The notes below the pieces were generated by a model. It searched no databases, was not told where the DNA came from, and saw nothing but the letters and a program-made list of their open reading frames with translations. The position numbers were made by a program, and so were the translations under genes. This document shows positions 45,056-60,431 of a stretch of DNA of 64,000 bases, piece after piece. Source of the stretch: Thermoflavifilum thermophilum (lineage in GTDB: Bacteria > Bacteroidota > Bacteroidia > Chitinophagales > Chitinophagaceae). The DNA is taken from positions 930,001 through 994,000 of the forward strand of contig NZ_FPCJ01000001.1 of NCBI RefSeq assembly GCF_900116565.1. Reading direction: 5' to 3'. Each line of letters starts with the position of its first letter. Position 1 is the stretch's first letter.

Positions 45056-47896
45056 ATGGCTCAAAAACAAGCACAACACTCAGCAACCCTCGTTCATCAG
45101 CCGGCTTTGGCTGACGGCCAGTGGGATATCCGGCATGTGATACTGGTGAAAGGCGCGCGGGTGCATAACTTAAAAAACATTACCGTAGCCTTTCCCAGAA
45201 ACCGTTTTATTGTGGTAACCGGCGTATCCGGATCGGGCAAATCATCCTTAACCATCGATACCCTGTATGCCGAGGGGCAGCGTCGCTATGCCGAAAGCCT
45301 AAGTGCTTACGCCCGACAGTTTCTGATGCGCATGGATAAACCGGATGTAGACATGATTAAGGGCATTTGCCCGGCTATTGCCATTGAACAAAAAGTCATG
45401 GCCCGTACGCCCCGTTCCACTGTTGGCTCGCTTACTGAGTTGTATGATTATCTGCGGATGCTGTTTGCCAGAATTGGGAAAACCTATTCGCCGGTTTCGG
45501 GCAAAGAAGTGAAGCGCTATCAGGTAAGTGATGTGGTGGATTTTGTCTTGCAGCTTCCGGCTCAAACCCGGATAGTCATTGCCGTTCCGCTCCGTATCCG
45601 CAAGGGTTATACCCAATCACAGGAACTGCATATTCTGCTGCAAAAAGGGTTTTCCCGCCTGTATGTGGTTGATGGCAATCATCGGGAAATTTTACGCATT
45701 GAAGATCTCTTGGATCAGAAATGGCCTAAAGGGAATGTGTTCGTATTAATAGATCGGCTGGTGGTAGATGCATCCTTGCAGGAAGAAGATGCTCGTCACC
45801 GGTTGGCAGATAGCATTCAAACTGCCTTTTATGAAGCTGAGGGTGAGTGCTGGATTGAGGTAAATCAGCAGCAGTGGCATTCTTTTTCCAATCGGTTTGA
45901 AATGGATGGGATCCGATTTGAGGAACCCGTACCCCAGCTGTTTTCCTACAACAGTCCCTACGGAGCCTGCCCGGTGTGTGAAGGATTCGGACAGGTTCTG
46001 GGCATTGATCCCGATTTAGTGATTCCTGACAAACAGCTGAGCGTATATGAGGGGGCTATAGCCTGCTGGCGCGGGGAAAAGATGAAAGAATGGAATGAAG
46101 CGCTGATCCGTAACGCGCACAAGTTCAATTTCCCCATTCACAAACCCATTGCTGAGCTTACTCCTGAACAATACGAACTGCTCTGGAAAGGGAACAAATA
46201 TTTTGCTGGGATTGAGGATTTCTTCAAAATGGTAGAAGAAAACCTCTACAAAATCCAATACCGGGTATTGCTATCCCGTTATCGGGGTCTCACCACCTGT
46301 CCGGCCTGCCACGGAACGCGCCTGCGCAAAGAAGCATTGTATGTAAAAATCCAGGGGCGCCATATTGCTGAGTTGATGGCGATGCCGGTAGAAGAGCTGG
46401 CTGTTTGGTTTGACGAGCTCACCCTTGCACCTGCCGAACAGCAGATTGCCGCACGTCTGCTGCACGAAATCCGTTACCGGCTGAGCACCCTGCTCAAAGT
46501 AGGACTGGGTTATCTCACCCTCGATCGTCCGGCCAACACCCTCAGCGGCGGCGAAAGCCAGCGTATTCAGCTCACCCGATCGCTGGGCAGCAATCTCACC
46601 GACTCGCTTTATATCCTCGACGAGCCCAGCATTGGGTTACATCCCCGCGATACCCACCAGCTGATTGAAGTGCTGAAGGAACTGCGCGATCTGCACAATA
46701 CCGTAATAGTGGTGGAGCACGACGAGCAGATGATGCGCGAGGCCGATTACATCATCGATATGGGACCCCTAGCCAGCCATCAGGGTGGTGAGGTAGTGTT
46801 TGCCGGAACGTACGATGAAATCCTCAATGATTCCAAAAGCCTGACCGGCGCCTACCTGAGCGGCCGGATGCGTATTCCCGGAGGTGGGCCAGGCCGGCCA
46901 CGCAAGTGGACCCAATCGATCAGGCTCGAAGGATGCCGGGAACATAACCTGAAACAAATAGATGTAGAGTTTCCCCTGAATGTCCTGTGTGTGGTGAGTG
47001 GCGTGAGTGGCAGCGGGAAAAGTACCCTTGTCACCCAGATCCTATATCCGGCCTTGAAAAAGCTGAAAGGAGATCCTGTAGGCAAACCTGGCTGGCATAA
47101 AGCGCTGAAAGGCGATCTGCAGGCTGTCACACAAATAGAACTGGTGGATCAGCAACCCATCGGCAAATCTTCCCGCTCCAACCCCATTACCTATATCAAG
47201 GCATACGACAGCATCCGTTCGTTGTTTGCTTCCCAGCCACTCAGTAAAATCAGGGGATATCAACCCCGCCATTTCTCTTTTAATGTGGATGGCGGAAGAT
47301 GTGATCGATGCAAGGGCGAGGGTGAAATTACCATCGAAATGCAGTTCCTGGCCGATGTGCACCTGACCTGTGAAGTTTGCCACGGCAGGCGCTTCAAGGA
47401 AGAAATCCTGGAAGTGCATTATCGGGGAAAAAACATCCACGATGTCCTGAATATGAGTGTGGACGAAGCACTGGAATTTTTTGCCGATGAACCGGATATC
47501 GTCCGTCAGTTGAAACCTTTGCAGCAGGTGGGTCTGGGATATATCAAATTAGGCCAGCCGGCCAGCACACTGAGTGGTGGTGAAGCCCAGCGTGTGAAAC
47601 TGGCTTCTTTTCTGGGGCACAGCCATGCGCAGGAGCACATCCTGTTTATTTTCGACGAGCCCACAACCGGCCTGCATTTTCACGATATTGCCTTTCTCCT
47701 GCAATCCTTTGATGCTTTGATTGAACAAGGTCATTCCATCATTGTCATTGAACATAACCTGGATGTGATTCGCCGGGCCGATTGGGTCATTGAGCTGGGG
47801 CCCGAAGGTGGGGAGCGTGGCGGAGAGCTGATTTTTGCCGGTACACCCGAAGCTTTGAAGCAGGTAGAAGGAAGCTATACGGCGCGGTTCCTGTGA
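45056..47896 (+). CDS. uvrA: excinuclease ABC subunit A
   Basis: A 946-residue nucleotide-excision-repair ATPase that finds DNA damage with UvrB. Two ABC modules are seen: Walker [10 protein letters not shown] at 56-64 and GVSGSGKST in the second half; signatures [15 protein letters not shown] and [15 protein letters not shown]; Walker [13 protein letters not shown] and [11 protein letters not shown]. Zinc-binding Cys pairs are in [25 protein letters not shown] and CEVCHGRRF. Full length. The 3' end overlaps the convergent fcl by 22 bp. Confidence 0.97.
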
Positions 47897-49984: not shown

Positions 49985-50055
49985 ACTTAATTCATTCTTC
50001 TGTAAACAAATCCACCAAGCAACTGTTATCCTTGAAATCAATGTAAATTTCGCCC

Positions 50056-50982
50056 ATGGAAATTGAGGAACAACGATTTTCTATTCGGGATCTGGAAAAT
50101 CTTTCCGGCGTTAAAGCCCATACCATCCGCATTTGGGAACAACGCTATGGTTTTCTGAAACCCCGGCGATCTGATACCAATATCCGCTATTATACCAACG
50201 AGGAGCTGAAAAAAATCCTCAATGCCGCCCTGCTCACGCGCTATGGATTCAAGATTTCACAAATCAGCAAAATGAATGACGAGCAGCTTCAGGAAAAAGT
50301 ACTGGAGCTACATCACCATGAAGCTCTGCAAGATCGGCTGGTAAACGAACTCATCACCCGCATGATTGACATGGATATAAGCGGCATGGAGGAAATCCTC
50401 GACCACTTTATCCTGACCAAAGGCATTCAGAAAGCCGTAAATACCCTTATTTTCCCTTTTCTGGAACGCATTGGTATTCTGTGGAGCACCGATCGCATCC
50501 ACCCGGTGCACGAACACCTGGTCAGTTGCCTGATTCGCCAGAAAATCATTGCGGGTATCGAAGGCCTGGTGAACCGACCTATCACACAGCAAACAGCTCT
50601 CCTGTTTTTACCCGAAGACGAATACCACGAGCTGGGATTGCTTTACCTGTATTATCTGCTCAAACAGCGCGGCATACAGGTGTACTACCTGGGAGGCAGC
50701 GTTCCGTTGAACAATATTGAGTTTGTTGTTAAACAAAAAAACATCTCGATTCTGTTTACCCATCTCACTTCCCTGCCACCTGGTTTTAACCTGCCCTTTT
50801 ACGTTCATCAGTTGAGCCTTCATCTGAAAAAATCCAGCATATACATTTCCGGCCCGGTAATAGAGCAGCTTTCCGGCAAAAAATACCCCAACATCCACCT
50901 GATTCATTCCCAGGAAGAACTACAGGCCGAGATTGAAAAAATTTTTCTCCGGGAAAGTAGTTTTTCTCAGAAAATTGTTTAA
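50056..50982 (+). CDS. B12-binding MerR-family photoreceptor regulator (CarH/LitR type)
   Basis: A 308-residue regulator in three parts: MerR DNA-binding domain (about 6-75, TIRIWEQRYGFLKPRRSDTNIRYY), a four-helix B12 cap domain (about 85-170) with W143-x9-E153-H154, and a cobalamin-binding Rossmann domain (about 178-300) with E189-x-H191-x-x-G194. W-x9-EH and ExHxxG are the marks of CarH, where adenosylcobalamin binding makes a dark repressor that light destroys; H191 would be the cobalt ligand. It lies just upstream of a sigma factor and the carotenoid genes, whose control is its likely task. Light response has not been shown and rests on the conserved residues. Confidence 0.9.
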   Translation: MEIEEQRFSIRDLENLSGVKAHTIRIWEQRYGFLKPRRSDTNIRYYTNEELKKILNAALLTRYGFKISQISKMNDEQLQEKVLELHHHEALQDRLVNELITRMIDMDISGMEEILDHFILTKGIQKAVNTLIFPFLERIGILWSTDRIHPVHEHLVSCLIRQKIIAGIEGLVNRPITQQTALLFLPEDEYHELGLLYLYYLLKQRGIQVYYLGGSVPLNNIEFVVKQKNISILFTHLTSLPPGFNLPFYVHQLSLHLKKSSIYISGPVIEQLSGKKYPNIHLIHSQEELQAEIEKIFLRESSFSQKIV

Positions 50983-51007
50983 CTTTGAAATAGAAAAAGT
51001 TAAACAA
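50975..51007. promoter_or_regulatory. 12-bp perfect inverted repeat, candidate operator for the sigma-crt operon
   Basis: TTGTTTAACTTT at 50975-50986 and AAAGTTAAACAA at 50996-51007, spacer 9 nt, ending 1 nt before the sigma ATG at 51009. The left arm includes the regulator stop codon and most of the -7 element TAACTTTG (50980-50987). A terminator is unlikely because no T-run follows. Binding here would block the promoter. Confidence 0.65.
50980..50987 (+). promoter_or_regulatory. -7 promoter element of the sigma-crt operon (TAACTTTG)
   Basis: TAnnTTTG match inside the left arm of the 12-bp dyad, 21 nt before the ATG at 51009. Confidence 0.55.
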
Positions 51008-51008
51008 G

Positions 51009-51539
51009 ATGTCTGCTTCAGAATTTCAGGAAATCCTGACTGCCGAGTCAGATTTCCTTAAGCCACTGGCCATTCACCTGACACACGATACCTCGATGGC
51101 CGAAGACCTTTACCAGGAAACGCTTTACCGGGCACTGGCCAACCAGGAGAAATACCAGGCCGGCAGCAACCTGAAAGCCTGGTTGTACACCATCATGAAA
51201 AATATTTTCATCAACGACTATCGCCGAAAACGTAAACACTGGACAATATTCGATTCCACCACTGCAACCCTTGCCGCCGATCATCCATCACGCTCCGGAC
51301 GAAATGCCGGCGAATCCAATCTGCGCTATGCCGAAATCCGCAAACAGGTGGATACATTGCCGGAAATATTCCGTAAACCATTTTTGCTATACTTCCAGGG
51401 TTTTAAATATGAAGAAATAGCCCGGATGCTGCGGGAGCCGCTGGGTACCATCAAAAGCCGGATTCATTTTGCCCGGAAAATGCTCAAAGCAAGGATTTCG
51501 CAATCGGAACAAATATGGCTAAGCGCATCAGCATCATAG
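51009..51539 (+). CDS. ECF-type sigma factor of the carotenoid operon
   Basis: A 176-residue sigma factor with region 2 (about 14-80, SMAEDLYQETLYRALANQ, NLKAWLYTIMKNIFINDYRR) and region 4 (about 112-165, LPEIFRKPFLLYFQGFKYEEIA, GTIKSRIHFARK). It sits between the CarH-like regulator and crtI and overlaps crtI by 25 bp. In Streptomyces an ECF factor (LitS) next to a B12 MerR protein (LitR) carries the light signal to crt genes; a similar role here is an inference. No anti-sigma gene is seen. Confidence 0.92.
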   Translation: MSASEFQEILTAESDFLKPLAIHLTHDTSMAEDLYQETLYRALANQEKYQAGSNLKAWLYTIMKNIFINDYRRKRKHWTIFDSTTATLAADHPSRSGRNAGESNLRYAEIRKQVDTLPEIFRKPFLLYFQGFKYEEIARMLREPLGTIKSRIHFARKMLKARISQSEQIWLSASAS

Positions 51540-52996
51540 GAAGCGGTTTTGCCGGCCTTGCTGCTTCATGCTTTCTGGCGCGTGAAGGATTTGAAGTGGA
51601 GGTTTTTGAAGCACTCGACGGACCCGGCGGCCGGGCGGGTCTCTGGGAGGCTGAGGATTTCCGTTTCGACATGGGCCCCAGCTGGTACTGGATGCCCGAT
51701 ATTTTTGAACGTTTTTTCCAACGGTTTCAGCATCAGCCATCGGATTTCTATGAGTTGATTCGTTTGAATCCCTCCTATCGGATTTTCTGGGAAGATGGCT
51801 TTACCGATATTCCGGCCGATAATAAAGCGCTTGCCGCCCTATTTGAAAGCTGGGAACCCGGCAGCAGCAAGGCTTTGCAGCAATATTTGAAAGAGGCGGC
51901 CTGGAAGTATGAAGTGGGCATGAAAAAGTTTGCCTACAAGCCTGGACTCTCCTGGATGGAATTCATGGACCGGGATGTATGGCAGGCACTGGGCAAATTG
52001 GATTTGTTGCATTCCATCCATCATCACGTTGCCCGCCATTTCAACCATCCGCGCATCCGGCAAATCATGGAATTTCCTGTGCAGTTTCTCGGTGCTTTGC
52101 CACAGGAAACGCCTGCATTGTACAGCCTGATGAATTATGCAGACATCGTGCTGGGCACCTGGTATCCCATGGGTGGCATCTATCGTGTGGTAGAGGCTTT
52201 GTATGCACTGGCCCAAGCTGCGGGAGTAAAGTTTCATTTCGGCACACCCGTACAACAAATTCGCATCGAAGGGAAAAAAGCTGTAGGCCTGGTTACGAGC
52301 AAGGGTGAAACCAATGCCGATGCCGTGCTTGCTACGGCCGATTACCATCATGTGGAGCAGCAATTATTGCCCGCTGAGGTCCGCCAGTATCGGGAAACCT
52401 ATTGGCAAACCCGACAGCTTTCTCCCTCTTGTTTGCTGTATTATCTGGGCATCAACCGAAGGGTGAGTGGTTTGCTGCATCACAATCTTTTCTTTGATGC
52501 TGATTTTGACCGGCATGCGGCCGAGATTTATAAAAATCCAGCGTGGCCATCCCGTCCGTTGTTTTACGTGTGTGCACCTTCCATCACAGATCCCAATGTG
52601 GCTCCGCCGGGAAATGAAAACCTGTTTGTCTTGATTCCCATTGCTGTCGAATTGGAAGGTGATGACGAGCCTCGCAGGGAAGCCTATTTGCAACAGGTAC
52701 TCAACAGGCTACAACGGGTTACAGGCATAGATTTATCAGGCCATATCCGTTATTGTAAAACTTTGGGTCCTCGTGACTTCGTAAATAGATATCATGCCTA
52801 CAAAGGCAATGCCTACGGATTGGCCAATACGCTCCGGCAAACGGCCGTCCTGAAACCGCGCATGCGCAGCAAGCGAGTTGAAAATCTGTTTTTTGCCGGA
52901 CAACTTACGGCTCCCGGACCCGGCATGCCTGCGGCTTTGATTTCAGGCGAGCTTGCAGCTACACTGGCAACAAACTACCTGCATAAATTGTTATGA
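51515..52996 (+). CDS. crtI: phytoene desaturase (CrtI)
   Basis: A 493-residue FAD enzyme taking phytoene through successive desaturations to lycopene. The dinucleotide site is GSGFAGLAASCFLAREGFEV (about 9-28), followed by GGRAG and DMGPSWYWMPDI; the C-terminal FAD motif is NLFFAGQLTAPGPGMPAALISGELAA. The start lies inside the sigma gene, and the stop overlaps crtB by 4 bp (ATGA), so translation is coupled along the operon. Confidence 0.94.
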   Translation: MAKRISIIGSGFAGLAASCFLAREGFEVEVFEALDGPGGRAGLWEAEDFRFDMGPSWYWMPDIFERFFQRFQHQPSDFYELIRLNPSYRIFWEDGFTDIPADNKALAALFESWEPGSSKALQQYLKEAAWKYEVGMKKFAYKPGLSWMEFMDRDVWQALGKLDLLHSIHHHVARHFNHPRIRQIMEFPVQFLGALPQETPALYSLMNYADIVLGTWYPMGGIYRVVEALYALAQAAGVKFHFGTPVQQIRIEGKKAVGLVTSKGETNADAVLATADYHHVEQQLLPAEVRQYRETYWQTRQLSPSCLLYYLGINRRVSGLLHHNLFFDADFDRHAAEIYKNPAWPSRPLFYVCAPSITDPNVAPPGNENLFVLIPIAVELEGDDEPRREAYLQQVLNRLQRVTGIDLSGHIRYCKTLGPRDFVNRYHAYKGNAYGLANTLRQTAVLKPRMRSKRVENLFFAGQLTAPGPGMPAALISGELAATLATNYLHKLL

Positions 52997-53853
52997 ACAA
53001 TATGAAAGACCGATTGGCACTCTATCTGTCCGTAAGCCAGGTATGTAGCCGGGAAATTACCCAGCATTACAGCACTTCCTTTTCAAAAGCTATTCGTTTG
53101 CTTCATCCGGATCTTCGGAATGCCATTTGTGCGATTTATGGTTTTGTACGCATTGCCGATGAAATTGTAGATAGTTTTCATGCCTATAACAAATACCAGC
53201 TGCTGAAAGAATTTGAACAAGCCACTTATGAAGCCATTTCACAAGGCATCAGCACCAACCCCGTCCTGCAGGCTTTTCAGCAAACCGTTCGTCGTTACCA
53301 GATTCCCCATCATCTGATTGACGCATTTTTTAAAAGCATGTATCTCGACCTGGAAAAAAATATTTATCAACATCCCGAAGAATTAAACACCTATGTGTAT
53401 GGATCAGCAGAAGTGGTGGGACTCATGTGCCTGTGTATTTTCTGTGAAGGTGATCAAGCAAAATATCATCAATTACAAGATGCAGCCCGTGCCCTTGGAT
53501 CCGCTTTTCAGAAAGTAAATTTTCTGAGGGATATCCAGGCTGATTCTCAAGATCTGAAACGATGCTATTTTCCTGCATTCACAGCCAAAGGTTTTCTTGA
53601 CAAGCAGGCCAAATGCGAAATTGAGAAGGATATTGAGGAAGAGTTTGCACTTGGATTGCAAGGCATCCGCTTCCTGCCTTCCAAAGCCAGATTTGGTGTG
53701 TATGTTGCCTATCGGTATTTTTATGCATTATTTAAAAAAATCAAACGTACAAATCCGGAAAAAATCATGCAACAACGCATTCGAATACCCAATCATCAGA
53801 AACTTATCATCATGCTCCGTGCCAGCATTCGTCATCAAATCAATGGAATATGA
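52993..53853 (+). CDS. crtB: phytoene synthase
   Basis: A 286-residue trans-prenyl condensing enzyme joining two GGPP to phytoene. First Asp-rich motif D56-E-I-V-D60 in YGFVRIADEIVD, second NFLRDIQADSQDLKRCYFP, plus the early YSTSFSKAIRLL segment. It overlaps crtI upstream and idi downstream by 4 bp each. No GGPP synthase gene (crtE) is in the operon. Confidence 0.95.
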   Translation: MNNMKDRLALYLSVSQVCSREITQHYSTSFSKAIRLLHPDLRNAICAIYGFVRIADEIVDSFHAYNKYQLLKEFEQATYEAISQGISTNPVLQAFQQTVRRYQIPHHLIDAFFKSMYLDLEKNIYQHPEELNTYVYGSAEVVGLMCLCIFCEGDQAKYHQLQDAARALGSAFQKVNFLRDIQADSQDLKRCYFPAFTAKGFLDKQAKCEIEKDIEEEFALGLQGIRFLPSKARFGVYVAYRYFYALFKKIKRTNPEKIMQQRIRIPNHQKLIIMLRASIRHQINGI

Positions 53854-54392
53854 AACAAGAAGAAACACTAATACTGGTTGATGAATACGATGAAATGGTG
53901 GGCACAATGGAAAAAATGAGAGTGCACCAGTTAGGGTTGCTGCATCGGGCTTTTTCCGTGTTCCTGTTTAATCATAAATACGATATGTTGCTACAACTGA
54001 GAGCACAGGATAAATATCATTCCGGAGGATTGTGGACCAATGCCTGCTGCAGCCATCCGCGTCCCGGGGAATCGACCATAGATGCAGCACATCGTCGCCT
54101 GCAGGAAGAGCTGGGAACAGATTGCCCTTTGCAAGAGTTGTTTACTTTTACCTATCGTGTGAAACTGCCAAACGGATTGATAGAATATGAACTGGACCAC
54201 GTGTTTATCGGATTTCATGAAGGACCTTTTACGCCCGACCAAAACGAAATTGATGAAATCAAATTTTTCTCACTGGATGATATTCAACAACAAATAAATA
54301 TCCACCCGCATCAGTTTACATACTGGTTTCAGCTGGCGTTCCCGAAAATAAAAAACAATATGAATGAAATTCAACTCATGGTTTCATCATAA
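53850..54392 (+). CDS. idi: isopentenyl-diphosphate isomerase, type I
   Basis: A 180-residue Nudix-fold enzyme that balances IPP and DMAPP. The catalytic Cys is in TNACCSHPRPGES (C67 expected), with the Glu in IEYELDHVFIG and the Nudix helix AAHRRLQEELGTDC. Length fits the type I enzyme. It overlaps crtB by 4 bp and is 12 bp before crtZ; being in the operon would raise precursor supply when carotenoids are made. Confidence 0.95.
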   Translation: MKQEETLILVDEYDEMVGTMEKMRVHQLGLLHRAFSVFLFNHKYDMLLQLRAQDKYHSGGLWTNACCSHPRPGESTIDAAHRRLQEELGTDCPLQELFTFTYRVKLPNGLIEYELDHVFIGFHEGPFTPDQNEIDEIKFFSLDDIQQQINIHPHQFTYWFQLAFPKIKNNMNEIQLMVSS

Positions 54393-54404
54393 ATCATAAA
54401 GCAT

Positions 54405-54905
54405 ATGGTATCCGTTTTATTCAACCTGTTGATTGTGATTGCCACCTTCTTCTTTATGGAGGGGGTAGCCTGGTTTACACACAAATATGTAATGCATGGA
54501 TTTTTATGGGTACTGCACAAAGATCATCATCAGAAAGAGCCTGGCTTTTTTGAGAAGAATGATGCATTTTTTCTCATATTCGCGATTCCCAGTTTTTTGT
54601 GCCTGTATTTTGGAGCTACCCGTAATATTGGATGGCTGGCTTCCATAGGTACAGGCATTCTGATTTATGGCATTGCTTATTTTCTGGTACATGATGTGAT
54701 TATTCACCAACGTTTTAAATGGTTTACCCGCTCGCAAAACAGGTATATCAAAGTACTGCGCTGGGCACACAAAATGCATCACAAGCACCTGGGAAAAGAA
54801 GATGGAGAATCATTTGGCATGTTGATCGTAGCCAAAAAATATTGGGATAAAGTAAAACGCGATGAGCAAATAGCAACTTCTCATGCATCCTCAAGTCATC
54901 ATTAA
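54405..54905 (+). CDS. crtZ: beta-carotene hydroxylase
   Basis: A 166-residue membrane di-iron hydroxylase that makes zeaxanthin from beta-carotene through cryptoxanthin. His boxes: H26-x4-H31 (HKYVMH), H38-x2-H41-H42 (HKDHH), HDVIIH near residue 100, and HKMHHKH at about 125. Four hydrophobic stretches fit the CrtZ topology. It sits 8 bp before the crtY start used here. Confidence 0.93.
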   Translation: MVSVLFNLLIVIATFFFMEGVAWFTHKYVMHGFLWVLHKDHHQKEPGFFEKNDAFFLIFAIPSFLCLYFGATRNIGWLASIGTGILIYGIAYFLVHDVIIHQRFKWFTRSQNRYIKVLRWAHKMHHKHLGKEDGESFGMLIVAKKYWDKVKRDEQIATSHASSSHH

Positions 54906-54913
54906 AATTGCAT

Positions 54914-56098
54914 GTGTCAGATAAGATTTGTTATTACGATGTGGTGATTGCAGGAGCCGGTTGTGCGGGTTTAAGTCTGGCCGTCAGGATGGCCCGATCA
55001 CCGGCTTTATCATCATGGAATATTTTATTGCTTGAACAACAGGAAAAAAATCAAAACGACCGCACCTGGTGTTTCTGGGAATCGGGAAAGGGTTATTTTG
55101 AATCCATCGTGCAACATCGCTGGTCTGCAGGTGATGTAATAACAGATGAAAAATGCATTTGCCTGGACTTCGAACCGTTTGAATACAAAATGATACGAAG
55201 CAAACATTTTTATGCGTATTGCAAGGAGATATTACAACAAGTTAACGAACAAAACCAAGCACGAAGAATAGACATTTGGTATGAACCTGTCACACAGATA
55301 CTTGACAAGGAAACCTATGCTGAGGTACACACCTCATATCATACCATCCGGTGCAGATTTGCATTCAGCAGTTTGCCAAGAGATATTCCACAGGATAAAT
55401 CTATTCATTTTCTCTGGCAGCATTTTCAGGGATGGCTGATTCGAAGTGCGACACCGGTATTTGATGCATCGCGCATGGTGTTGATGGATTTCCGTGTGCC
55501 CCAACAACAGGCTACAGCATTCATGTATGTATTGCCATTCAGCGCTCAAGAAGCATTAATTGAATACACCGTATTTTCAAAACAATTGTTGTTGCCTGAA
55601 GTATATGATGCATGTATTGAACAGTATATGCAAATGCATTATCCTGATTTATCTTTTGAAATCCTCGAAAAAGAACAGGGAAAAATTCCCATGACGGATT
55701 ATACCTTCCCCCAAACGGATAAACATGTAATCTATATCGGCACATCTGGTGGACAAACAAAGGGCTCCACCGGATATACTTTTCCATTCATTCAGCAGCA
55801 TTCCGATGCAATCTTGCAGGCACTCGAAAATGGAAATTCGCCGCATATCTATCATCAGCCAAGAAAAAAATTTTATCGTTATTATGATCGCTTGCTTTTG
55901 GATGTATTGAGCAAATCGCTGTATCCGGGAGATAAACTATTTGCAGATTTGTTTGATAAGAATCAAACAGACAAAGTAATTCGTTTTTTAAATGAACAAT
56001 CCACTTTCTGGGAAGACATCTCCATTATTCTTTCATTGCCCAAAAAACCTTTTCTCGAAGCTGCTCTGGATACATGGAAACAAAATTTAAACAGATAA
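54914..56098 (+). CDS. crtY: lycopene beta-cyclase (CrtY/CrtL type)
   Basis: A flavoprotein of about 394 residues closing both ends of lycopene to beta-carotene. FAD site AGAGCAGLSLAVRMA at about 12-26, NDRTWCFW at about 50, LIEYTVFS and the GGQTKGSTGYTFPF segment in the second half match the CrtY family. There is no ATG: GTG at 54914 is used, with a TTG two codons earlier as the alternative. It ends 2 bp before the convergent GH43 stop, leaving no room for a separate terminator. Confidence 0.92.
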   Translation: MSDKICYYDVVIAGAGCAGLSLAVRMARSPALSSWNILLLEQQEKNQNDRTWCFWESGKGYFESIVQHRWSAGDVITDEKCICLDFEPFEYKMIRSKHFYAYCKEILQQVNEQNQARRIDIWYEPVTQILDKETYAEVHTSYHTIRCRFAFSSLPRDIPQDKSIHFLWQHFQGWLIRSATPVFDASRMVLMDFRVPQQQATAFMYVLPFSAQEALIEYTVFSKQLLLPEVYDACIEQYMQMHYPDLSFEILEKEQGKIPMTDYTFPQTDKHVIYIGTSGGQTKGSTGYTFPFIQQHSDAILQALENGNSPHIYHQPRKKFYRYYDRLLLDVLSKSLYPGDKLFADLFDKNQTDKVIRFLNEQSTFWEDISIILSLPKKPFLEAALDTWKQNLNR

Positions 56099-57782: not shown

Positions 57783-58832
57783 TTATAGTTGAGAAAATGG
57801 ATTCCAACTACTGGCAGGGTTTGTAAAAATTTGTTTTATCGTGTAGATTGATGCCTGCTTTGCATTCAGCTGATGCGACCATTTCACGCGATCAGCGGGT
57901 TTTGCACCGTGACCGGTAGAATGATATTCTGCATAAAACACCGTTTTTTCATTATCCGGATTGCGCCAGTTATCCCATCCTTCCGGACGAATAAAGCCTC
58001 CCATTTCGCAACGGATAAATACTGTTTTGGCATACTTTCGCCAGGGACGACCTAAGTAAACTTTATCCACACCCGCCGTGGCCTGAATTTGACAATCACG
58101 AAAAACCAATCCATATTTTGCATCAGCCGGAGTGGATGCGGCAGTAATGAAAGAGTTGGCTTTGCAAACAATCGTGCAACTATCAAACAATGCGGTAGCT
58201 TCACCAAAGATAAAATCAGTTGTACCTTCAATGGTGCAATCACGAAAATATTGCCTGTTGTGCTCGCCGGTTACATATAATGCATCTTGATTGCCGATGA
58301 TCCGGCAATGCACAAACATACAACGATCGGCATCCACGGCCAGTGCAATGGCTTGCCCTACGGGGCCTGCATCATTTTGAAAAGTAATGTTTTCAGCATA
58401 AAAATCACTGCCCTGTACCAGCACAGTGGGGGTGTAGAACGTACTATTGGGACCCTTGTTTATTTTTTTGAAATAATCATCATAGACAATGATGGTACTG
58501 TCTGCATCTTCACCCACAAGAGCAATCTTGGGATTCCATTCAGGAATGAAGACCTTTTCATGATAGATGCCTTTTTTGATAAAGATGCGAATTGGCTCAT
58601 AGGGAAATGATTTGCAGGCTTCAATAGCAGCCTGAATAGAGGTGAAATCACCTTTGCCATCCTGAGCAACTACATAATCATATTTTTTTTGATTTGCCGT
58701 TAAAGCTTGCTGCGCATTTGCAGGATTCAGGACACAGCAACAACTAATCAAACATAAAACCGTAAAAAATGAACTAATAAGGTTTCCAATCCTGCAGGAT
58801 ATTTGCCAATGTATAGGCTTTGGCTTCATCAT
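57783..58832 (-). CDS. pectin methylesterase (CE8), copy 1
   Basis: About 349 residues with a signal peptide (hydrophobic part about 17-35). The right-handed beta-helix of CE8 has the active-site blocks NQDALYV, GTTDFIFGEA with the nucleophilic Asp, and LGRPWRKYAKTVF with the catalytic Arg. It removes methyl groups from homogalacturonan. The chosen ATG at 58832 is inside the end of the preceding pectinesterase gene (59-bp overlap); no start after the upstream stop keeps the signal peptide. Confidence 0.9.
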   Translation of the reverse strand: MMKPKPIHWQISCRIGNLISSFFTVLCLISCCCVLNPANAQQALTANQKKYDYVVAQDGKGDFTSIQAAIEACKSFPYEPIRIFIKKGIYHEKVFIPEWNPKIALVGEDADSTIIVYDDYFKKINKGPNSTFYTPTVLVQGSDFYAENITFQNDAGPVGQAIALAVDADRCMFVHCRIIGNQDALYVTGEHNRQYFRDCTIEGTTDFIFGEATALFDSCTIVCKANSFITAASTPADAKYGLVFRDCQIQATAGVDKVYLGRPWRKYAKTVFIRCEMGGFIRPEGWDNWRNPDNEKTVFYAEYHSTGHGAKPADRVKWSHQLNAKQASIYTIKQIFTNPASSWNPFSQL

Positions 58833-59772
58833 CTGTAAGTTGATGCGACCATGCAACCCGCTGCTGGGGCTGATATCCGGGACCTGTGTTTTGATATTCT
58901 GCATAGTAAGCTGTTAAATCATTCTGTGTATCGTGCCAATTGCTCCATCCTTCCGGTGCAATCATATTGTCCAAGTAGCAATACAGATATACCACACGCG
59001 CATAAGGCCGCCAGGGCCGACCCAGATAAAACGAGTGGGGTGGTGCATTGCCTGTAATTTCGCAATGAAGAAATACATAGCCAAATCGATTTCCCTGTGG
59101 TGTGGATGCCGCTGTGATATAATGCCCGCCGCTTTTGCAGTAAATCAGACAACTGTCAAACACAGCCGTGGCTGATCCAAAAATAAAATCAGTTGTACCT
59201 TCCACATAACAATCCCGATAATATTGGCGGCTATTGCTTGATCCAGGATTTCCGGTGTACAAAGTATCCTGAAAACCAAGAAAGCGACAATGATGAAAAT
59301 AAACCCGATCACCTGATACATAAGCTGCCACAGCCTGACCTACCGGCCCGGCATCGTTTTGAAACGTAATGTTTTCGGCTACCACATCATTGGCATAAAT
59401 ATACACACTCGCCGAACCTGAAGTCCCCAGCGGATTTCCGGCACTATCCAGTTTACTGGCATAATCGCCATACACCAGAATTACACTGTCCACATTTTCT
59501 CCCATCAGTTTGATAAAACGCTTGCTGGCCGGTATCACGATTTTTTCACGGTAGATGCCGTTTTTTATGTAAATGTAGGTGGTATCGGTTGCGGAATCGG
59601 GTACGGCCGAGATGGCCGACTGCACCGTGGTAAAATCACCACTGCCATCTTGGGCCACAACAATTTCACGGCGCTGATTGGTTTGCCCGTCTTGTGATGA
59701 TGCCTGATTTGTTTTCAGACATCCCAGATGGAAACCCGAAATCATGCATAAAAACAACAAACAGGTTTTCAT
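58774..59772 (-). CDS. pectin methylesterase (CE8), copy 2
   Basis: A 332-residue lipoprotein (signal ending GFHLGC) with CE8 blocks FQDTLYT, GTTDFIFGSA and LGRPWRPYARVVY. It is a clear paralogue of the neighbouring gene, but lipid-anchored. The ATG at 59772 overlaps the stop of the GDSL gene by 4 bp; an open frame upstream of this ATG is antisense-like and has no family similarity. Confidence 0.92.
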   Translation of the reverse strand: MKTCLLFLCMISGFHLGCLKTNQASSQDGQTNQRREIVVAQDGSGDFTTVQSAISAVPDSATDTTYIYIKNGIYREKIVIPASKRFIKLMGENVDSVILVYGDYASKLDSAGNPLGTSGSASVYIYANDVVAENITFQNDAGPVGQAVAAYVSGDRVYFHHCRFLGFQDTLYTGNPGSSNSRQYYRDCYVEGTTDFIFGSATAVFDSCLIYCKSGGHYITAASTPQGNRFGYVFLHCEITGNAPPHSFYLGRPWRPYARVVYLYCYLDNMIAPEGWSNWHDTQNDLTAYYAEYQNTGPGYQPQQRVAWSHQLTDDEAKAYTLANILQDWKPY

Positions 59773-60431
59773 GTATGAAAGATTTGGGGAAAATGTTTGG
59801 TTAAATATTTCCACACAGCATCTGCAATTTGTTGTTGGCCGGCCAGATTGGGATGCAGGCCATCTGCATAATTTTCCGGAGAAACCACATGCAACAGTGA
59901 AACAAAGCCCGTACGCATGCTTTTGGCAAGCTGACGGTACCGTTTTTCGAGTTGAAACAATGCCTCTTGTGTGCGAGCATTGTATTGTTTTTGCCGATTC
60001 AAGGCCGACATGCTTTGCAGATTGATATTGCAAGGCGATAAAATAATCACCTTTGCTTGCGGATTAACCTGGCGAATTTGTTCAATCATCCACCGCATGT
60101 TTTGTACACAGCTGTCAACCTGTGCAGATGAAGCATTTTTCAAATCATTTACTCCCAAAAAAATCAAATAAAATGCAGCTTGCGGGTATTGTTGCAATAC
60201 AGGCAATAGCTCCTGCTTATCGGCTGTTCTTCTCCCGTTTCGACCTGCATTGATGAATTGCCATTGATCATGACCATGTTGTTGCTGCAGCATCCATACC
60301 CAGCTATGGCCATCTACTTCAGCTCCATGCGTGATGGAGTCACCAAAGCAAACCACCTGAACGGGAGCTGGCTGTAGCATGAAGGCCCACAAACTCATCC
60401 ATCCCAGCATCCAGCAAGATTTTAAAAGCAT
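59769..60431 (-). CDS. GDSL/SGNH esterase, rhamnogalacturonan acetylesterase-like
   Basis: A 220-residue exported SGNH hydrolase. Block I is FGDSITHG (Ser), block II region GRNGRRT, block III GVNDL (Asn), block V DGLHPN (Asp, His). In a pectin locus this best fits deacetylation of rhamnogalacturonan or galacturonan; the acyl group cannot be told from sequence. It lies 12 bp after the pectate lyase and overlaps the next gene by 4 bp. Confidence 0.86.
   Translation of the reverse strand: MLLKSCWMLGWMSLWAFMLQPAPVQVVCFGDSITHGAEVDGHSWVWMLQQQHGHDQWQFINAGRNGRRTADKQELLPVLQQYPQAAFYLIFLGVNDLKNASSAQVDSCVQNMRWMIEQIRQVNPQAKVIILSPCNINLQSMSALNRQKQYNARTQEALFQLEKRYRQLAKSMRTGFVSLLHVVSPENYADGLHPNLAGQQQIADAVWKYLTKHFPQIFHT

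Follow-up and report, generated by a model that had tools for sequence, protein, structure and literature searches.

A predicted CarH-type photoreceptor circuit with a sigma factor layer at the carotenoid genes of Thermoflavifilum thermophilum and other Chitinophagaceae

The window analysed here is a stretch of 64,000 nucleotides of Thermoflavifilum thermophilum (contig NZ_FPCJ01000001.1, positions 930,001 to 994,000) in which a gene for a B12-binding MerR regulator (merR) is followed by a gene for an extracytoplasmic function (ECF) sigma factor (ecf) and by a run of carotenoid (crt) genes. A predicted inverted-repeat operator lies at the junction of merR and ecf, and a predicted ECF-type promoter precedes merR. 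The features are as follows, in window coordinates:

50005..50029, plus strand: predicted ECF-type promoter of merR, -35 AAC, 16 base pairs (bp), -10 TGTTAT; matrix score 17.4
50056..50982, plus strand: merR, predicted CarH-like B12-binding repressor gene, 308 amino acids (aa); by domains, fold and ligand alignment
50976..51006, no strand: predicted operator, inverted repeat TGTTTAA-N17-TTAAACA, 31 bp; by comparative sequence
50980..50987, plus strand: -7 box TAACTTTG inside the operator, presumably of the Bacteroidota main-sigma type
51009..51539, plus strand: ecf, ECF sigma factor gene, 176 aa; Sigma70_r2 and r4_2
51515..52996, plus strand: crtI, phytoene desaturase; Amino_oxidase/crtI_fam, NCBIfam CrtID above cutoff
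52993..53853, plus strand: crtB, phytoene synthase family; Pfam SQS_PSY, NCBIfam CrtB models below their cutoffs
53850..54392, plus strand: idi, isopentenyl-diphosphate isomerase; NUDIX/IPP isomerase, NCBIfam above cutoff
54405..54905, plus strand: crtZ-like hydroxylase gene, 166 aa; histidine motifs by eye, tblastn homologues in place in many relatives
54908..56098, plus strand: crtY, lycopene cyclase family; Pfam Lycopene_cycl, NCBIfam CrtY models below their cutoffs, TTG start as listed

The genes are tightly packed: merR and ecf are 26 bp apart, ecf overlaps crtI by 25 bp, crtI overlaps crtB and crtB overlaps idi by 4 bp each, and gaps of 12 and 2 bp separate idi from crtZ and crtZ from crtY. 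The order and overlaps given in the initial annotation, which had read the locus as a light switch over a zeaxanthin operon, are exact by open reading frame (ORF) coordinates, and the two motifs it had named in the regulator, W143-x9-E153-H154 and E189-x-H191-x-x-G194, are present. The neighbours of ecf are merR and crtI, and no anti-sigma gene lies beside it. The cluster was compared across 108 loci with 108 distinct merR proteins, namely the window, 100 fetched regions and seven named loci. The fetched regions were selected as the nearest matches to the window merR, so that all counts apply among merR relatives, closest first, and the loci share descent; merR and ecf starts were assigned by script, and shuffle controls preserve single-base composition only. 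An ecf homologue was found in the region of 74/108 loci, 56 of which also carry crtI or crtB at more than 40% identity, and the arrangement is therefore not due to chance. In 69 loci, referred to here as merR-ecf loci, ecf lies within 700 bp of merR, and 51 of these have crtI at more than 40% identity on the same strand; the remaining 39 have no ecf within 700 bp. Of the 298 genomes sampled across the order Chitinophagales, 232 contain a merR homologue at 1e-10 or better. The window regulator shares 81% identity with its counterpart in a Thermoflavifilum metagenome-assembled genome, and two genomes of the window's genus match it at 94 and 81%.

The operator is the most regular element of these loci. 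In the window, a flanking T and A extend the repeat to 33 bp (50975-51007), with the merR stop codon inside the left arm. The repeat (16- or 17-bp spacer, at most two mismatches) was recovered in 68 of the 69 merR-ecf intergenic regions, and the single miss (L137) was mis-started by the script and does contain it; the form with a 17-bp spacer alone occurs in 44/69 loci as compared with 8 of 1380 shuffles. Sixty proximal sites lie 28-48 bp upstream of the ecf start, and in 56 of them TAnnTT[TC] stands at one fixed place in the left arm. We take the related consensus TAnnTTTG to be the -7 box of main-sigma promoters in Bacteroidota; TTTG or TTG lies at 17-22 bp from this box in 29 of the 56 sites, the window not among them. 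A second repeat is found upstream in 42 loci, 55-57 bp from the first centre to centre in 34 of them. Each arm fits the CarH half-site nAnnTnnACAn, the two arms being inverted and 22 bp, or two 11-bp units, apart centre to centre. Read by eye, the consensus shows TnnACA inverted at both ends and a degenerate middle of 11 bp, and tandem direct repeats, scored as at least two nnnnTnnACAn on one strand, were not found in it. The element may be described as a 33-bp operator in which three 11-bp units follow one another, the first in inverted orientation, and which frequently occurs twice, about 55 bp apart, around the promoter. The 2.86-Mb genome holds exactly one exact copy. Candidate operators elsewhere were rejected, and none is claimed, since the 25 sites with at most two mismatches (exact copy included) compare with 33 for the reversed-pattern control. 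We take the repeat as the predicted binding site of the regulator. Its repressor-type position over the ecf-crt promoter is in keeping with the repression of the operon that had been proposed at the outset.

Its distribution ties the operator to merR. Six genomes of the family have ecf without merR (five at 54-61% identity, one at 43%), and with at most one mismatch allowed the repeat is absent before ecf in all six, although one has a two-mismatch version; one of the six retains ecf-crtI-crtB-idi-crtZ. Conversely, the repeat occurs in the region of 16 of the other 39 loci, in which no ecf follows within 700 bp, compared with 0 to 3 in ten shuffles. In L077 it separates merR from a divergent ecf, and in L101, L103 and L104 it precedes a more distant ecf; in others it lies before merR (for example in L035, L038, L091, L095 and L111) or, in L135, 4 bp before crtI. 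As it is missing from merR-less ecf loci and present in some ecf-less merR loci, the operator follows merR and not ecf. Among 11 homologues with changed cobalamin ligands, nine have no repeat, ecf or crt gene in their region, and two (L085 and L035) have the repeat. As a separate observation, three loci (L042, L086 and L093, in genomes G189, G239 and G148) keep merR-ecf and the operator in genomes where a search at 1e-80 found no crtI, and idi is the next gene after ecf in L042 and L086; the switch may therefore target more than carotenoids.

The regulator joins a MerR DNA-binding domain (Pfam MerR_1, 9.5e-14) to a four-helix and Rossmann B12-binding domain (B12-binding_2, 5.5e-06; fold match), and its best relatives by sequence in the Protein Data Bank are the CarH/LitR proteins of Thermus thermophilus (TtCarH). 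A model built from nine aligned sequences (mean predicted local distance difference test score 85.7) has TtCarH and CtMerR among its top fold matches. Against TtCarH (5c8e) it aligns over 270 residues with Z 17.9 and a root-mean-square deviation of 12.6 between the two-domain arrangements; the B12 domain alone superposes at about 2.5 A over about 190 residues, and the structural alignment shows about 20% identity. The residues W131, E141, H142 and H177, ligands of adenosylcobalamin (AdoCbl) in TtCarH, correspond to W143, E153, H154 and H191 in the window, and their equivalents are kept in 107, 107, 98 and 102 of the 108 aligned proteins, respectively. These ligand equivalents and the TtCarH fold bear out the earlier assignment to the CarH/LitR type. 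Of the light signature GxxW, EH, GxxH and GxxxP described in PMC11796333, the window regulator has G140xxW, EH and GxxxP, and the glycine of GxxH is Asp188 (Gly in 68/108 proteins). The genome encodes a PduO-type cobalamin adenosyltransferase and carries two cobalamin riboswitches, so AdoCbl may well be available to the cell. In six homologues from a single family of the order (f18; L129, L130, L131, L133, L134 and L138) Gln replaces the cobalt-binding His, the EH motif is changed, and the region has neither operator nor crt genes; these six are likely B12-free paralogues or relics.

The second conserved element lies upstream of merR itself. In the window it reads AACAAA...TGTTAT and ends 26 bp before the merR start, and its AAC-16-TGTwA pattern has what we presume to be the shape of an ECF promoter. 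AAC-N15-TTGT was found in 34 and AAC-N16-TTGT in 8 of the 69 merR-ecf loci (42 in total; about 0.7 each in shuffles), and a stricter pattern gave 21 matches in the 100 bp before merR versus 16 elsewhere in the 834 kb of the 108 loci that were scanned with patterns and matrix. The matrix, for which 49 promoter sites of merR were the sole training set, is over threshold before merR in 62/69 merR-ecf loci and reaches the stricter cut of score 12 in 54/69 (training sites included). At score 12, the 834 kb hold 70 hits before merR (training sites included; one locus may count repeatedly) and, elsewhere, four before ecf, three each before crtB and crtZ, one before idi and 24 unassigned, and a few loci have matrix sites ahead of a crtZ or idi that is split off. 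On these counts, there is little sign of ecf autoregulation or of direct sigma control of crtI. Only 4/108 loci have a site before ecf at score 12, so the sequences do not show the sigma factor amplifying crt expression, as initially inferred, from its own promoter at the ecf gene. Conserved sigma promoters in the ecf-crtI gap or within the crt operon were rejected (the gaps are mostly short, with no shared motif by eye), as was one before crtI in genomes where it is split from merR-ecf; a crtI locus was obtained from 10 of 16 such genomes, and the six upstream stretches read by eye showed no clear common motif. In two of the six merR-less ecf loci (L236 and L235), a sigma-type site does precede ecf, with scores of 11.6 and 8.8, as if ecf had come under its own control after the loss of merR.

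The same promoter type recurs at dxs, the gene for the first enzyme of the MEP pathway, which supplies isoprenoid precursors. In the window's own genome, AACWWW-N13-TGTWAT gives 15 matches versus 12 for the reversed control, and the motif alone therefore gives no regulon call. Six of these matches fall outside any ORF of at least 100 aa, including the merR site, two sites close before other ORFs (L165 and L170) and one that precedes dxs, located elsewhere in the genome and named by NCBIfam TIGR00204 above cutoff. The matrix was scored on the 120 bp upstream of dxs at the 5% shuffle threshold; its training genomes are largely those in which dxs was tested, with a different promoter. A hit was obtained in 25 of 31 merR-ecf genomes of the family versus 2 of 20 without merR (Fisher 6e-7), in 24/30 when the window's genome, where the dxs site was first seen, is dropped, and in 18/31 versus 0/20 at score 12. 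Within genera g4, g5 and g34, members without merR and this ECF factor miss the dxs site by the matrix (one of them, L213 in g5, fits the simple pattern), and the other members have it in 5/6, 1/1 and 1/1 cases, respectively.

These elements can be assembled into a circuit. In the dark, the AdoCbl-bound MerR protein would sit on the inverted repeat, cover the -7 box and keep ecf-crtI-crtB-idi-crtZ-crtY off; in the light, the Co-C bond would be cleaved, the repressor would leave, and ecf and the crt genes would be transcribed as one transcript. The ECF factor would direct RNA polymerase to the AAC-16-TGTwA promoters before merR and dxs, thereby raising isoprenoid precursor supply and restocking the repressor whose cofactor light had consumed, so that the switch could be reset in the dark. 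AdoCbl photolysis in CarH is described as irreversible (PMC8156234), and light-driven synthesis of new repressor would therefore allow a return to the dark state. As the predicted sigma targets are the repressor gene and precursor supply, the loop would be mainly negative. The initial annotation had proposed positive feedback; the ECF-type promoter before merR and dxs makes a negative loop, from sigma factor to repressor gene, the likely one. With merR and ecf only 26 bp apart, readthrough from the merR promoter into ecf-crt is possible in the window. Other loci (L045, L059 and L063 are examples) have a longer merR-ecf gap with a G+C-rich hairpin and a T run, seen by eye, through which the loop would stay negative.

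A CarH-type photoreceptor circuit of Chitinophagaceae with a sigma layer appears to be the best explanation of the locus, with a probability of roughly two in three. Comparative sequence analysis has demonstrated what this reading builds on, namely the predicted operator, its tie to merR, the conservation of the ligands, the fold and the predicted promoter shared by merR and dxs; AdoCbl binding, the response to light and the direction of regulation we infer. Several observations weigh against it. At the operator, the window carries one repeat and not two, a -33 box was looked for in the window and not found, and the operator is missing from the regions of 14 homologues whose ligands are intact. 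The regulator scores 88.8 against the cutoff of 400 of the NCBIfam CarH equivalog NF052513. Its equivalent of TtCarH His132 is Ser144, and none of the 108 proteins has His there. This last point leads to a reading in which the protein senses AdoCbl without being a photoreceptor and represses when B12 is plentiful, with little effect of light for want of a His132-type latch. His132 is the light-state ligand of TtCarH, and the H132A variant is mostly tetrameric in light and after it; the same source notes an earlier study with disassembly of this variant (PMC10442372). The adenosyltransferase and the two riboswitches would suit such a sensor. CtMerR, however, has Arg at this position and still monomerises in light (PMC11796333), the window protein keeps its counterparts of H177 and of the two residues by which the adenosyl group is held, W131 and E141, and the target is a pigment operon; we therefore consider a pure B12 sensor unlikely. 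MerR proteins are often activators, which counts for a regulator that would switch on the sigma gene in light instead of repressing it in the dark. In Streptomyces, LitR is described to promote litS in light, and both repressor and activator functions have been suggested (PMC12705666). At this locus, by contrast, the repeat covers the -7 box itself, which is a repressor's place, and activation is the least probable of the alternatives weighed here.

The weakest step is the one in which this ECF factor would read the AAC-16-TGTwA promoters. These could instead belong to another sigma factor or regulator, the ECF factor of the locus having other targets. Of the 39 loci that lack ecf within 700 bp, 21 have a matrix site before merR (12/39 at score 12); some of the 39 carry ecf further off. 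By the same matrix the dxs site is missing in 6 of the 31 merR-ecf genomes and in four of the five merR-less genomes with the ECF factor at 54-61% identity, the fifth (L208) being just over threshold; the simple pattern gives a weaker dxs contrast, 14/31 versus 2/20 (expected 0.5 and 0.3). Outside the family, where the search for dxs at the chosen E-value gave a match in 8 of 30 genomes, the site occurs in 3/8 genomes and in 2/7 among those with linked ecf. On the other hand, the site is commoner before merR when ecf is linked, it also precedes the split-off crtZ or idi mentioned above, and the merR- and ECF-less members of the three genera miss it at dxs. A different owner of these promoters is a serious contender, at somewhat less than an even chance. 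The full form of the CarH-type circuit, a self-restocking switch in which light-freed sigma factor transcribes the repressor gene and dxs, and in which a two-fold symmetric operator would need a CarH-DNA assembly different from the solved one, is possible but rather doubtful.

The end product of the pathway is likewise a matter of degree. The crt genes of the proposed zeaxanthin operon are confirmed, and zeaxanthin itself is plausible as the product but uncertain, because the window CrtI scores above the NCBIfam cutoff for CrtID, a bifunctional phytoene desaturase/3,4-desaturase, so that the product may not be plain zeaxanthin. The 166-aa CrtZ gave no match in a Pfam/NCBIfam scan at 1e-3. Beyond the cluster, two adjacent ORFs that look pectinesterase-like by eye lie past the crt operon on the minus strand (57783-60033), and a 946-aa ORF that is UvrA-like by eye (45056-47896) lies near the pigment genes and may have some bearing on light damage.

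Studies of B12 photoreceptors cover few phyla and concern operators built from direct repeats. One order of Bacteroidota would now offer a second operator design together with natural proteins without His132, and its sigma layer may tie pigment formation to precursor supply and to renewal of the repressor. The circuit could bear on light-induced carotenoids of Bacteroidota without a known regulator, such as those of Chryseobacterium lacus (PMC7064467), and a single-target operator is potentially useful for optogenetics. The CarH/LitR family, the LitR-LitS pair, merR-rpoE-crt clusters of Bacteroidetes and the lack of His132 in CtMerR are already known from the sources cited here. Among the literature matches listed, none gave a Bacteroidota CarH/LitR operator, its tie to merR, a promoter shared by merR and dxs or sigma control of dxs.

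Compared with known systems, the locus resembles TtCarH, the Thermus thermophilus LitR (5c8d, 5c8e, 3whp), with which it shares the architecture of MerR domain, four-helix bundle and Rossmann B12 domain, the equivalents of W131, E141, H142 and H177, the half-site nAnnTnnACAn and carotenoid genes as target. It differs in lacking His132, in the sigma gene interposed between the gene of the repressor and those of the pigment pathway, and in its inverted arms 22 bp apart centre to centre, whereas TtCarH uses tandem 11-bp direct repeats, as is described for CarH operators in general (PMC8156234, PMC9304148). In Streptomyces LitR-LitS, too, a MerR regulator of the B12 type is encoded next to an ECF sigma factor within a carotenoid system. 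In that case LitS directs transcription from the crtE promoter, and LitR is described to promote litS (PMC12705666), whereas here the crt genes belong to the same operon as ecf and the promoters predicted for the sigma factor precede merR and dxs. In Myxococcus, the ECF gene carQ sits in a separate operon. As in the CarH-CarA system of Myxococcus and Cystobacter, where CarH repression is AdoCbl-dependent, the operator overlaps a crt promoter; direct repeats are recognised there even at once-proposed palindromes, and the palindromes once proposed for CarA are described as unneeded for binding (PMC9304148). The same kind of neighbourhood is found in the merR-rpoE-crt cluster of Echinicola marina (PMC8683446) and the merR-crt cluster of Nonlabens spongiae (PMC11855829), which the relevant passages of these reports list simply as genes, with no mention of B12, an operator or a regulon.

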